Shown: one piece after another, positions 8,944 through 43,184 of the stretch | How positions within the stretch are numbered: the stretch's first letter is position 1 | How the letters are laid out: every line of letters starts with the position of its first letter | Assembly: GCA_028287235.1 (NCBI GenBank) | Contig: JAQBQB010000022.1 | Location: 124,001-188,000, forward strand | Source of the DNA: Gemmatimonadota bacterium | Lineage (GTDB): Bacteria > Gemmatimonadota > Gemmatimonadetes > Gemmatimonadales > Gemmatimonadaceae | Reading direction: 5' to 3' | Length of the DNA: 64,000 nucleotides | Notes under the pieces: generated by a model | Databases searched by the model: none | What the model saw: the letters and a program-made list of their open reading frames with translations, nothing else | Told to the model about the DNA's origin: nothing | Translations under genes and position numbers: made by a program

Positions 8944-10215
8944 TCATACCGCCCTCTCAATCGACGGGCTCTGCGGCGTGAACAGCTTCGGCCCGCTCTC
9001 CGTGATGTGCAGACAATCTTCCAGCCGAATCCCGAACTCCCCATAGATCGCAATGGTGGGCTCGTCGCTGAAGCACATGCCGGGCTGAATCTTCGTGGTG
9101 TTCCCGCGAACGAAGTTCGTCCATTCATGCCCGTCGAGCCCGATGCCGTGGCCGGTGCGGTGCGGTAGCCCAGGCACCTTGTAGTCCGGTCCGAAGCCGG
9201 CGGCGGCGATGACCTTTCGTGCCGCGGCATCGACCGACTCGCATGTCGCGCCGATCTGCGCGGCGGCGAACGCCGCGCTCTGGGCGCGCTTCTCCACCTC
9301 CCACACGTCGCGTTGCCGTTGCGTCGGCTTGCCAAACACCGTGGTGCGCGTGATGTCGGAGGTGTAGCCGTCCACCGTGCACCCGGCGTCGACGAGCACG
9401 ATGTCGCCCTCGCGCAGCTTCTGCGGCTGCACGCTGCCGTGCGGGAACGCGCTGTACTTGCCGAAGATCACGAGCGCGCCGTCGCCCTTGCCGCCGAGCT
9501 TCGTCGTCGCGTCGCCGACGTTCCCCGACAGCTGCTGCGTCGTCATCCCCTCCTTCAGTGTCTTGAACGACGCGCCGATCGCCTGCAGCGTGATGTCGTT
9601 CGCCTGCTGCATCAACGCGATTTCGGCGGGCGACTTGATCATGCGGCAGCCGGCCGTGATCGGCGTGGCGCTCACGAATTGCGCGCCTGGCAGCTCCTGG
9701 CGCACCCCGTCGTAGATGAAGAAGCGCACCCGCTCCTCCATGCCGATCTTCCCGCCGCCGACACCCCGGTCGCGCAAAATTCCGGCGATGACCTTGTACG
9801 GACTCTCGTCCTCCTGCCAGACGCGAACGTCGTTGGAGAACTTGATCAGCTCGCGCGCCCGCTGCTCCTCGAAGCCTGGCGTGACCCAGGCCAGCTCGCC
9901 CTTGGCGGGAATGACCACGCCGAACGTCCGCTCGCTGTTCCCCCACCGCACTCCGGTGAAGTAGAACATGCTGGTGCCGCCCTCGAGGAAGATCGCGCCA
10001 ATGCCGTTTTGCGTCATCAGCCGGCGCGCCTTCTCGATGCGCCCCTGGCGCTCGTCGTCGGTGATCGCTGGAGCGGACAAACCGACCGAACGAGACGTGG
10101 CGAGGTCGGCCGACAACGTTTCCGCGAAGGCGGTCGTAGGATCGATGATGCTTGGGCCGATCGCGGCGGCGCCGATCAAGCCGCTCGACCGGTTGACGAA
10201 TTGGCGTCTATTCAT
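8944..10215 (-). CDS. secreted M24 family metallopeptidase (Xaa-Pro aminopeptidase type)
   Basis: A 423-residue protein whose N-terminus (MNRRQFVNRSSGLIGAAAI) looks like a Tat or Sec export signal. The C-terminal pita-bread domain has all five metal ligands of M24 peptidases: Asp276 and Asp287 in VDAGCTVDGYTSDITRT, His356 in HRTGHGIG, Glu385 in SDEPT and Glu399 in RLED. Such enzymes release N-terminal residues before proline. It is divergent from the S9 peptidase gene, with 99 bases between starts, so the two may share control and act in peptide scavenging. The ATG at 10215 is chosen because it begins the export signal. Confidence 0.92.
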   Translation of the reverse strand: MNRRQFVNRSSGLIGAAAIGPSIIDPTTAFAETLSADLATSRSVGLSAPAITDDERQGRIEKARRLMTQNGIGAIFLEGGTSMFYFTGVRWGNSERTFGVVIPAKGELAWVTPGFEEQRARELIKFSNDVRVWQEDESPYKVIAGILRDRGVGGGKIGMEERVRFFIYDGVRQELPGAQFVSATPITAGCRMIKSPAEIALMQQANDITLQAIGASFKTLKEGMTTQQLSGNVGDATTKLGGKGDGALVIFGKYSAFPHGSVQPQKLREGDIVLVDAGCTVDGYTSDITRTTVFGKPTQRQRDVWEVEKRAQSAAFAAAQIGATCESVDAAARKVIAAAGFGPDYKVPGLPHRTGHGIGLDGHEWTNFVRGNTTKIQPGMCFSDEPTIAIYGEFGIRLEDCLHITESGPKLFTPQSPSIERAV

Positions 10216-17971: not shown

Positions 17972-18568
17972 CTACAGCAGCCGGCGCGCGGCGACGAAAT
18001 ACTGCACGAACCACTCGCCGCCGGTATTGAGGTCGGTGTACCCCACGCCACCGACCGCGCTCGACGCATGAAGGATTCGTCCGTTGCCGGCGTAGATCGC
18101 GACGTGCGAGATCGCCTGGCCCGGCTCGGCGAAGAGCATGATGTCGCCAGGGATCAATGCGCGAAAATCCCGCGCGACCGCCGTGCCGGACCGCACCTGC
18201 TCGCGCGCCGTCCTCGGCAGCGCGATCCCGTATTTCGCGAATACGAACTTCGTGAAGCCGGAGCAGTCGAATCCTTCGCTTGGCGTGTTGCCACCCCAGA
18301 CGTACTTCACCCCGACGTATGCGTCCGCCGTGTGAAGTACGTGCGCCGCCGCTGACGACGGTGCAGGCGACTCCGGAATTCGCGCGCGCGTCCGCGCGGT
18401 GCCGCCGCTACCACCGCCGCCGCCATCGGCGGATCGTGGAATGTTCGCGACGACCGTCGCGAGAATGCTGCCTGGCGACACGCCGAGCCCTGTCGTCGCA
18501 CACCCCGCGACGGGCATGAGGGACAGGGTGGTGATCGCGCGAACTCGAAAGACGGAGCGCCTACTCAT
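17972..18568 (-). CDS. NlpC/P60 family peptidoglycan endopeptidase lipoprotein
   Basis: A 198-residue predicted lipoprotein (lipobox MPVAGC, Cys23) with a low-complexity Gly/Ser linker at 49-56 and a C-terminal NlpC/P60 domain. The catalytic Cys102 is in FDCSGF, His155 in ISHVAIY, and the third polar residue His167 in ILHAS. The preceding YVWGGNTPSEG is typical. Such enzymes cut peptide cross-links of the cell wall. The ATG at 18568 is chosen because it begins the lipoprotein signal. Convergent with SusD. Confidence 0.92.
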   Translation of the reverse strand: MSRRSVFRVRAITTLSLMPVAGCATTGLGVSPGSILATVVANIPRSADGGGGGSGGTARTRARIPESPAPSSAAAHVLHTADAYVGVKYVWGGNTPSEGFDCSGFTKFVFAKYGIALPRTAREQVRSGTAVARDFRALIPGDIMLFAEPGQAISHVAIYAGNGRILHASSAVGGVGYTDLNTGGEWFVQYFVAARRLL

Positions 18569-36149: not shown

Positions 36150-36221
36150 GGTGCGGTAGCCAAGTGGTAAGGCAGCGGTCTGCAAAACCGCTATTCGCGA
36201 GTTCGATTCTCGCCCGCACCT
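36150..36221 (+). tRNA. tRNA-Cys (anticodon GCA)
   Basis: A 72-base cloverleaf: acceptor GGTGCGG (36150-36156) pairs with CCGCACC (36214-36220); D stem GCC/GGC; anticodon stem GCGGT/ACCGC with loop CTGCAAA, anticodon GCA at 36182-36184; T arm GCGAG-TTCGATT-CTCGC. The discriminator base is T, as required by cysteinyl-tRNA synthetase. CCA is not encoded. A strong terminator follows. Confidence 0.97.
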
Positions 36222-36254
36222 CTGGAAGCCTCGTCTCTGAGGGACGCATAGGCA

Positions 36255-40286: not shown

Positions 40287-40952
40287 CTAGGGCTTCAACC
40301 GCCAAAAGTCATCCGTCAATCCGACACTGTCGAGCACCGTTTGCGCTTCATCTGCTGCGCGCGGCCGCCACGAAGCTTCGCGGCGGTCCACGTACCAGGC
40401 TTTCGACAAGCGCCAGGTTTGCTCGAGCGACAGCACGTAGCCGCGCGGTTTCTTGTTCGCTGCGAGCCATGCATCCAGGTGTTCTTCCGACCGGAAGAAG
40501 AGCATGGTGCTTCACGTGAAGCCGATGTCGTCGTACCACCGGCGCGCGGGCAGCAGGATGTGAACGAGGCCGTCCGACGACCGCGGGCCGTCGCGTGCGT
40601 CGACGTCGATCTCGACGTGTTCATTGCAATCGGCGCACATGGCATCGATGCGAACGGACTCCGACAGGAACGCGGGAATTCCGAACATGTCCCAGGCGCA
40701 GTTGGCCCACCACGAGGCGCGTGCGCCATGTACGCGGAAGCGTGTCGAAACCGCCGAGAAAGGCGCGGCCATCCAGATTTCGCGCGACGCCGGGTGCAGG
40801 ATCACCGCGCGCGATTTGCCGAGTGCCACGAGAGCTTCTCGCGCATCGTCGGGCGTGGTGCCGAAGTGCGAGGCGATCGCGTCGGACGTCGGTGCCGCGC
40901 CGTGGTCGGCGAGCTGCGCGTAGATGAAGATGCGGAGCTGGTCTAGTTCCAT
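40287..40952 (-). CDS. MerB-like (alkylmercury lyase family) protein, probable selenoprotein with in-frame TGA
   Basis: Read through one TGA, this is a 221-residue protein. Residues 1-60 are a winged-helix-like N-terminus (YAQLADHGAAPTSDAIASHFG). The catalytic part has ANCAWDMFGIPA with Cys85 and Asp88, matching Cys96-x-x-Asp99 of mercury-cleaving MerB, and an LLPARRWYDDIGFT strand leading straight into the TGA (codon 147, 40514-40512), then STMLFFRSEEHL. In MerB this place is Cys159 of SFCCHVHFFAS. The Cys-to-Cys spacing is 62 here and 63 in MerB. The C-terminal 74 residues (YVLSLEQTWRLSKAWY, VGLTDDFWRL) stay in frame. A SECIS-like hairpin follows the TGA. A nonsense-mutated pseudogene is the alternative. 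The start abuts a dispersed repeat. Confidence 0.75.
40482..40514 (-). promoter_or_regulatory. candidate bacterial SECIS element and Sec codon
   Basis: Minus strand: TGA (40514-40512), 12 bases, then TTCTTCC (40499-40493), loop GGTC (40492-40489) and GGAAGAA (40488-40482), a perfect 7-bp stem. The loop begins 19 bases after the TGA; in Escherichia coli fdhF the GGUC loop begins about 18 bases after its TGA. Two GAA codons form the 3' arm although GAG prevails in this GC-rich genome. Confidence 0.65.
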
Positions 40953-40985: not shown

Positions 40986-43100
40986 TCAGTTCCACCGCTC
41001 AATCGAATCGTGCAGCATCCGAAGCTGCCGCGCGAGACGATTGACGCGCGTACGCACGGCGGGAGACACGCTTTCATTGGGCATGGCGACCGTGCCCACG
41101 GCGGGAAACGGCGCGGGAGGTCGGCCATTGGTCACCGCCTCGGCCAGATCATCGAGTATCTGGTCGGCCGAGCCGGCGAAGGCGGCGAGCGATGCAGGCG
41201 GCGTCCGTCCGCCGGCGTTCGCGGTAAGCGCGAGCGCCGCGGTAGACGCGGCGAAGCGGCGCGTGTACGTGAGGAACGCCATGATCGGTTCGAGACGCTC
41301 GGCAGGGCCGGAGTACTCGCCGAGCAGACGTTGAAAGGATTCCTCGGCGTTGCTCGCGGCGAGGGCGATGTCGCGGCGCGCGTCGCGCAGCACGCCGGCG
41401 GGGAGCTCGGTGTCGCTCGTCGCCACGCGAATCGCGAGGCGGAGAAACTCCCTGCTCGCACGCAGCGCGGCCGCGGCGTGCTCAGGAAGGCGCTTCCATT
41501 CCTCCGACGGCCAGAGCAGGCGCGACCCGGCGAGCGCCAACGCACCGCCGATGAGCGTATTGGTAATTCGAATGCCGGCGAGATGCCAATCGCCGATGCT
41601 CGATTCGGCGAGCAGCACGAACGCCGGCGCCCCGAACACCGCGTACGCGCCGTAGTTGAGCGGCAGCAGCGCGACGCAGAGCGCCGTGAAGATGGCGATG
41701 AGAATGAGGACCGCGGCGAAGTTGTGAAAGAGCGCGCTCAATCCTGCCGCGACCACTCCGCCGAGTATCGTGCCGAAGACGCGTTGGAGCGCTTTCTGGG
41801 TGGTCGCGCCGCTGTACGGCTGGAGGATGACCACCGCCGTGAGCGTGACCCAGTAGCCGTGATCGAGATGGAGCAGGCCTGTCACGAGCACCGCGGTGCT
41901 CGTGACGATCGCGATGCGCAGCGCGTGCTGGAGGACGACCGAATCGGCGCGCGCGACGGCGCGGAGGGAGAAGAGTCGCAGGCGGGGCGCGCGGAGCTCG
42001 CCGACGGAGATGAGCTCCTCGTCTTCCGTCGATTGGCCGCCGCTGTTGAGCGTGGCGACCGTGGCGCTGGCGGCGACGGCGTAGTCGGCCATGCGGTCGA
42101 GCAGGGCGGCGACCGGTTCGTAGCGCGGATCCCCGGAGCTACGCAGTGCGGCGCCGCTCCATTCCACGGGAACGCGCCGGTCGTCGTCCTCCGACTCGAT
42201 CTCCTCGGCGATTGCGCGCACGGTGTTGGCGATGGCCCTCAGCGTATCGAGGAAGGTGCGCTGCTCCGGCGCGTCCGGCGCGCCCGTGGGCAAGACGTCG
42301 ACGACATCCATGAGCGCGATGAGATGGGCGTAGAGCTGGTCGGCGAGCTCGTGGAGCATGAGCAGTCGTTCGCCACGGCCGGTCTCGCCGGAGCGGCCGC
42401 GGCGAGAGACGGCGAGGGAGCTCCGCGCCGCCTCGATCGCCATGCGCGTGGCGACGAGGTGTTCCTTGAACTCCCAGGTATCGTGCGGCTGCCCCAGTTC
42501 GCTCTTCGCGACGACATCGGCGAGGTACGCCACGATCTCCCGGTAGCATGCCGCGACGCTCAACCGCACAGGGCGGTAGGGGCGGAGCGGCCACACGACG
42601 ATCGCGATCAGAAGCGCCCAGAGTCCACCGATCAGGATGTAGACCGGGCGCATGAGCGCGGCGGCGACGCTTCCGGACGGGATGGCGAGGGAGATAGCGA
42701 AGGTCACTAGGACCGTCACACCAAAGCCGGCGCCGATGTCGGGCCAGACTCGGACCATTCCGCAGGCGAAGGCGACCGCAAAGGCGACGGGGACGGCCAG
42801 GAGGAAATGGCCGGACACGGCCGCTCCGATCAGCGCAACCGTCGCGCTCGCCAACGCGAGCACGGTCATGGTGATGGCCCGGGTGCGATAGGGGCCGCCG
42901 CGATCGATCAACGCGCCGTTCAAGCCGGCGAGGCTCATCCACGCTCCGCCGCCGGTTCCGAACCATCGGTCGACCAAAAGGGGAGTGACCGTGGCGACGG
43001 CGGCGCGGAATCCGGCGGCGTAGGCCGGCCGGGCCTTGGCAACCACGGAGGCGACCCGGGCGTCGTGCAGCGCGCGCTTTGTGAAGTTCGTTCGAAGCAT
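40986..43100 (-). CDS. FUSC family membrane transporter
   Basis: A 704-residue inner-membrane protein with the two-half FUSC architecture seen in aromatic-acid exporters (AaeB/YccC). The first half carries five or six helices ending near PVYILIGGLWALLIAIVVWPLRPY, a cytoplasmic helical domain follows, and the second half repeats helices with HGYWVTLTAVVILQPYSGATTQKALQRVFGTILGG, the family signature, and LNYGAYAVFGAPAFVLL. ATG 43100 follows CTGGAG. It may export organic anions. It ends 33 bases upstream of the MerB-like start, in the same direction, so the two may be co-transcribed. Confidence 0.9.
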   Translation of the reverse strand: MLRTNFTKRALHDARVASVVAKARPAYAAGFRAAVATVTPLLVDRWFGTGGGAWMSLAGLNGALIDRGGPYRTRAITMTVLALASATVALIGAAVSGHFLLAVPVAFAVAFACGMVRVWPDIGAGFGVTVLVTFAISLAIPSGSVAAALMRPVYILIGGLWALLIAIVVWPLRPYRPVRLSVAACYREIVAYLADVVAKSELGQPHDTWEFKEHLVATRMAIEAARSSLAVSRRGRSGETGRGERLLMLHELADQLYAHLIALMDVVDVLPTGAPDAPEQRTFLDTLRAIANTVRAIAEEIESEDDDRRVPVEWSGAALRSSGDPRYEPVAALLDRMADYAVAASATVATLNSGGQSTEDEELISVGELRAPRLRLFSLRAVARADSVVLQHALRIAIVTSTAVLVTGLLHLDHGYWVTLTAVVILQPYSGATTQKALQRVFGTILGGVVAAGLSALFHNFAAVLILIAIFTALCVALLPLNYGAYAVFGAPAFVLLAESSIGDWHLAGIRITNTLIGGALALAGSRLLWPSEEWKRLPEHAAAALRASREFLRLAIRVATSDTELPAGVLRDARRDIALAASNAEESFQRLLGEYSGPAERLEPIMAFLTYTRRFAASTAALALTANAGGRTPPASLAAFAGSADQILDDLAEAVTNGRPPAPFPAVGTVAMPNESVSPAVRTRVNRLARQLRMLHDSIERWN

Positions 43101-43184
43101 GCTCTCCAGGCGGCCAACCCTCACGGGCAGGCGGTCTTACAACGCTCCAGCGGCCGCCCGCGTAAGCTCAAGTGGATGAACGTG

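Follow-up and report, generated by a model that had tools for sequence, protein, structure and literature searches.

Locus and Reading Frame

The window analyzed in this work, i.e., the whole stretch of 64,000 nucleotides of Gemmatimonadota DNA, carries on its minus strand an open reading frame of 146 codons (40512-40952), which starts at 40952 and is interrupted by a TGA at 40512-40514. If this TGA is read as selenocysteine (Sec, U), the frame continues to a TAG codon and encodes a protein of the MerB family. The features of the locus are as follows (window coordinates).

40287..40952, minus strand: complete putative selenoprotein CDS of the MerB family, 221 aa, Sec = residue 147 (translation with TGA = U)
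40698..40700, minus strand: Cys85 codon, equivalent of MerB Cys96; WWANCAWD in 24/24 proteins, C-x-x-D as in MerB structures
40689..40691, minus strand: Asp88 codon, equivalent of MerB Asp99; invariant in 24/24 aligned proteins
40512..40514, minus strand: in-frame TGA, putative Sec codon at the MerB Cys159 position (placed via homologue L085); TGA in 75/87 and TGC in 12/87 loci
40482..40499, minus strand: predicted SECIS hairpin TTCTTCC-GGTC-GGAAGAA with a 7-bp stem, read from the sequence; conserved and covarying in 64 distinct sequences
40493-40499, minus strand: 5' arm of the hairpin, read from the sequence
40489..40492, minus strand: GGUC apical loop, likely SelB contact; GGTC in 68/70 non-redundant TGA homologues, as well as at +18 in E. 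coli fdhF and in this genome's formate dehydrogenase gene
40482-40488, minus strand: 3' arm of the hairpin, read from the sequence
40287-40289, minus strand: TAG stop ending the read-through frame (translation with TGA = U)

Upstream, a neighbour gene on the same strand (40986-43124) stops 33 nt ahead of the MerB-like gene. A scan of the window against Rfam at gathering thresholds revealed tRNA only. A tRNA-Cys (GCA) gene is located at 36150-36222 on the plus strand.

Predicted Fold of the Read-Through Product

The read-through protein matches the Pfam family MerB (PF03243) with an E-value of 1e-28 and 100.2 bits, the gathering score being 27. Its AlphaFold2 model, built from an input of 24 aligned homologues, has a mean pLDDT of 96. 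Among solved structures the model matches MerB2 best (5c17; Z 18.0, 187 residues), with MerB (3f0o; Z about 14.5) in second place. As predicted by this model, the read-through product is a full-length protein of MerB fold.

According to PMC4525700, the mercury site of MerB is composed of Cys96, Cys159 and Asp99. The equivalents of Cys96 and Asp99, C85 and D88, lie in the motif W-W-A-N-C-A-W-D, which is invariant in all 24 aligned proteins, and the second metal ligand, at position 159, corresponds to U147, where Sec takes the place of the cysteine. The numbering is bridged by a Cys homologue, L085 from genome G079, whose cysteine aligns both with the TGA and with Cys159 of 1s6l; the number 159 was counted from the alignment of L085 to MerB structures. 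Past the TGA, the coding sequence is kept to its end, with F216 and W217 invariant in 24/24 aligned proteins. The cut-offs of the NCBIfam MerB equivalog models were not reached by the window protein (NF009710, 41.5 vs 193 bits; NF033555, 34.4 vs 200 bits).

Distribution of TGA and TGC Among Homologues

In total, 95 loci were collected, 23 of them from genome contigs by short query peptide patterns and the others by whole-protein searches of genomes of the same phylum. It should be mentioned that one of the patterns behind the 23 loci (SEEHLDAW) overlaps the stem and thereby biases the sampling. Six loci contained no match and two did not cover the site, which left 87; removal of six duplicates, recognized by their context, gave 81 non-redundant homologues.

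The codon at the site was TGA in 75 of the 87 loci and TGC (Cys) in 12, with no other codon found; in the non-redundant set the numbers were 70 and 11, and neither TAA nor TAG ever occurred. An in-frame TGA aligned with the Cys of homologues, as expected of a selenoprotein gene, was thus present. Judging by record titles, the TGA form occurs in Gemmatimonadota, Acidobacteriota, Chloroflexota, Actinomycetota and Planctomycetota. The Sec form of this enzyme family has a wide distribution, extending over several groups of bacteria.

The frame remained open for at least 64 codons past the TGA in 74 of the 75 TGA rows. The exception, L016 from Chloroflexota, has a second in-frame TGA at +16, a position where 22 of the 70 TGA homologues have Cys; this second TGA may be a second Sec codon, an error or a sign of decay. 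Another TGA homologue, L094 (genome G102), has a stem of 2 bp only, a change of Phe to Cys and a further in-frame TGA upstream, and looks like a decayed copy.

TGA is normally a stop, and the existence of a copy such as L094 would fit a truncated or decaying merB gene that ends at a genuine stop and is followed by an incidental hairpin. Against this, TGA occupies the same codon in 70 of the 81 non-redundant homologues and is replaced by TGC only, and the sequence behind it is conserved to the end of the gene, including the F216 and W217 pair. We consider a genuine stop very improbable.

The Hairpin Downstream of the TGA

The hairpin starts 12 nt after the TGA and its loop 19 nt after it. The first-pass annotation of this DNA had described a perfect 7-bp stem with a GGTC loop beginning 19 bases past the TGA, and both sequence and coordinates agree with that description. 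It had also likened the element to that of E. coli fdhF, with a GGUC loop about 18 bases past the TGA; in fdhF of MG1655 the GGTC does start 18 nt after the TGA. The two elements share an in-frame TGA, a hairpin located directly 3' of it and the GGTC loop, while they differ in the stem, which is imperfect and bulged in fdhF and consists of seven unbroken pairs here, as well as in the gene that carries them.

The legend of Fig. 2 in PMC13188914 gives a bacterial SECIS model with an apical loop of 3-9 nt and an upper stem of 4-16 bp; the present hairpin has a loop of 4 nt and a stem of 7 bp. The same model also asks for a G at loop position 1 or 2, a TGA-to-loop distance of 16-37 nt, and a free energy no higher than -7.5 kcal/mol. 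The loop is GGUC, with GGTC in 68 of 70 homologues and GG at the start, in register, in the remaining two; the distance is 19 nt; and the energy is -10.0 for 39 nt and exactly -7.5 for the bare 18-mer. As a SECIS element, the hairpin has nothing out of the ordinary.

Perfect stems of at least 7 bp with a GGTC loop occur twice in the window (both strands), whereas 60 sequences generated by an order-1 Markov model contained 0.13 on average. The other such stem lies near position 18455 on the minus strand. Folding z-scores were modest (-1.64 for 39 nt, -2.31 for 111 nt). Taken alone, the hairpin is moderately unusual, yet not decisive. Its identification as a SECIS element is secure because of its conservation, and not because of its rarity or folding.

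If the element served Sec insertion, TGA homologues were expected to have the hairpin and Cys homologues not to keep its codons. Among the 70 non-redundant TGA homologues, 68 have the GGTC loop in register, and the stem averages 6.2 bp. The two codons that span the loop are nearly fixed in these genes: codon +7 is CGG in 70/70 and codon +8 is TCG in 68/70, although elsewhere in the same genes CGG accounts for 29% of Arg codons and TCG for 35% of Ser codons. The 11 Cys homologues behave differently, with CGG in 2, TCG in 4, the GGTC loop in 2 and a mean stem of 1.3 bp. As to the TGA homologues that deviate, L044 has no GGTC loop and can form a 6-bp hairpin, CTCTTC-CGGGAC-GAAGAG, at the same place, and L057 has the loop GGGC.

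Covariation was studied in an alignment of 64 distinct 39-nt sequences, from which six further rows with identical 39 nt were omitted. The stem cells of this alignment were paired in 89.3%, a value reached by none of 500 shuffles and falling to at most 65% when the partner was slid. Cells changed on both sides numbered 43, with a shuffle mean of 19.0 and again 0/500 shuffles as high; cell counts of this kind are inflated by related rows. Neither the count of doubly changed pairs nor that of pair types exceeded the shuffles (130/500 and 208/500 as high, respectively). On the tree, independent double changes are few, though clean: two at pair 21-28 and three at pair 17-32, with one 5'-side change at 19-30. 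Compensatory changes in the stem, which the first-pass annotation proposed to look for among homologues, are best seen at pair 21-28, where U-A has replaced C-G twice, once in the Chloroflexota L013/14/16/20 and once, separately, in the Acidimicrobiaceae L022, both sides having changed together. This switch turns Glu into Lys; pairing was kept at the protein's cost.

The sequence might also have been conserved for the protein rather than the RNA, as TGA genes show hardly any variation in the motif Phe-Arg-Ser-Glu. Such conservation for an FRSE motif appears most unlikely: Cys homologues lose the motif (Arg at +7 in 4/11, Glu at +9 in 3/11), the codons of TGA genes are invariant where synonymous ones would serve, and the changes of Glu to Lys preserve pairing.

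Codon choice in the 3' arm, which uses two GAA codons, had been taken as a hint of selection on the RNA on the ground that GAG dominates in this genome. This holds for four other genes (GAG 91, GAA 32) but not for the gene itself, which has 8 GAA and 3 GAG. In the family as a whole, Glu at stem position +9 is encoded by GAA in 39 of 65 cases, compared with 259 of the 812 other Glu codons of these genes (Fisher p 9e-6).

Selenocysteine Machinery and a Second Client Gene

The genome of the window encodes SelA (531 bits), SelB (344 bits) and SelD (378 bits) and a tRNA-Sec (73.7 bits), all over curated cut-offs. The tRNA-Sec gene is located directly after selD: SelD ends at position 9199 of locus L032, and the tRNA is at C21:165207, which corresponds to position 9207 of L032.

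A second gene with an in-frame TGA was found in the same genome.

G000:C23:191561-193429, minus strand: formate dehydrogenase alpha (L134), one in-frame TGA in CNRT-U-HAPS

This gene was found by family search, with a family score of 654 bits, just below the family cut-off of 666. Past its TGA it has the hairpin GTCGTC-GGTCT-GACGAC with the loop at +18. The formate dehydrogenase and the MerB-like protein are unrelated enzymes, and their genes have in common an in-frame TGA and a hairpin with a GGTC loop. That two unrelated genes share this loop, at almost equal distances from the TGA, is expected if the SelB of this organism reads GGUC, and SelB would bind the GGUC loop in both. A covariance model of the hairpin scanned over the same genome gave 53.5 bits at the merB site, which is so by construction, and no other convincing site (next 18.6 bits, E 0.13); the formate dehydrogenase site was missed.

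We compared the occurrence of tRNA-Sec in genomes with the two forms of the gene. Of the 51 genomes that carry a TGA form, 49 have a strong tRNA-Sec (E<1e-10), as do 3 of the 11 Cys-only genomes (Fisher p 2e-6); at a looser threshold (5e-8) the contrast is weaker (50/51 vs 7/11, p 0.003). The table omits G152 (partial) and G032 (outside the sample) and counts G079 once, as TGA; G365, G301 and G382 were scored as being without tRNA-Sec, as they were not among the matching genomes listed. The two TGA genomes without a strong tRNA-Sec, G350 (1.0e-8) and G147 (none), are drafts, 93 and 94% complete, and the weak or absent match may reflect this incompleteness. The Cys-only genomes that keep a strong tRNA-Sec are G204, G176 and G302.

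An open frame past the TGA would also be produced by readthrough of another kind, namely near-cognate suppression or reassignment of TGA to Trp or Cys. The genome possesses, however, the complete Sec machinery, and a hairpin of Sec type is conserved only alongside TGA. As for reassignment, TGA appears to be the normal terminator of many homologous genes (e.g., L011, L044, L064), and we conclude for this reason that it was not reassigned in the lineages of the homologues. Readthrough by such a route is hardly credible. Thus, the TGA at 40512-40514 is almost certainly decoded as Sec, with the hairpin acting as a bacterial SECIS element; Sec insertion itself is an inference.

Relation to Known MerB Proteins and Possible Function

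With MerB (1s6l, 3f0o) and MerB2 (5c17), the window protein shares the fold over nearly the whole chain, as far as the predicted model goes, and the equivalents of Cys96 and Asp99. It differs from them in having Sec for Cys159 and in overall sequence, the identity being 16-20% in structural alignments to 5c17 and 3f0o; nor was a mer operon seen around its gene.

Another selenoprotein of this family is SaoL, which Haft and Gwadz reportedly described in 2023 as a MerB-like organometallic lyase. In the literature found by our search, outside which Haft and Gwadz 2023 and Haft and Tolstoy 2025 fell, no Sec form of MerB other than SaoL was met. SaoL is listed among selenoproteins in a table of PMC13188914, and an 'Alkylmercury lyase MerB-like protein' is listed under its accession in PMC9312934. 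Both SaoL and the present proteins belong to the MerB family and contain Sec, and 23 of 24 family members match the SaoL model (NF040728) at 1e-5 or less. The window protein, in contrast, does not reach the cut-off of that model (33 vs 140 bits) and aligns with it to residue 132 only, before the Sec. In addition, the motif of SaoL is CU as listed in the table of PMC13188914, whereas Thr stands at -1 in 70 of 70 TGA homologues here. The widespread Sec subfamily of MerB seems to be new; by model score and listed motif it is distinct from SaoL.

The following course of events can be proposed. SelB and Sec-tRNA-Sec would decode the TGA at 40512-40514 to give a full-length selenoprotein of the MerB family, in which Sec147 would stand in for Cys159, the second of the cysteines that bind mercury, next to Cys85 (Cys96) and Asp88 (Asp99). 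By homology, Cys85 and the selenolate of Sec147 may grip a metal such as mercury, and Asp88 may protonate the leaving carbon, whereby the carbon-metal bond would be cut. Selenolates bind mercury more strongly and are the stronger nucleophiles. In mimics of organomercurial lyase, selones are reported to outpace the sulfur analogues (PMC11639659). Lyase activity towards organomercury or another organometal has about even chances of being the true function, the substrate being a best guess.

In the 14 largest groups of neighbour genes no mer genes were recognized, the flanks comprising ~1-3 kb in most loci; each of these 14 groups is common to few loci only. The best match to MerA in the genome of the window scored 345.6 bits, below the cut-off of 454.

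The enzyme is of more interest than the hairpin, a signal of the textbook type. With selenium at a mercury-binding position, the question arises of speed versus product trapping. Surveys of merB that read TGA as a stop will end these genes within the active site, at residue 146, and may thus miscount how far Gemmatimonadota, Acidimicrobiia and Chloroflexota are able to break down methylmercury or other organometals.

Evolution of the Sec and Cys Forms

To relate the two forms, we used a tree of 78 proteins, i.e., the non-redundant set without three short rows (L083, L094, L114). Nine of the ten Cys rows form one clade (support 100/98) among Sec rows; L085, which is of canonical type, falls outside this clade and has a long branch. 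In the Cys clade the hairpin is lost and tRNA-Sec is mostly lost. If L085 is taken as the root, a placement chosen by us and not inferred by a program, the simplest history would be that Sec was gained once and given up once for Cys.

A wider proposal can be made, to which we give equal odds of being right or wrong: the proteins may represent an unnamed, widespread class of selenoenzymes in which a selenolate at the Cys159 position cuts carbon-metal bonds outside mer operons, here apparently without MerA, Sec having been gained once and exchanged for Cys again in one clade, for the most part where tRNA-Sec has disappeared. Genome G079 has both types of MerB, the Sec type (L065) and the canonical Cys type (L085).
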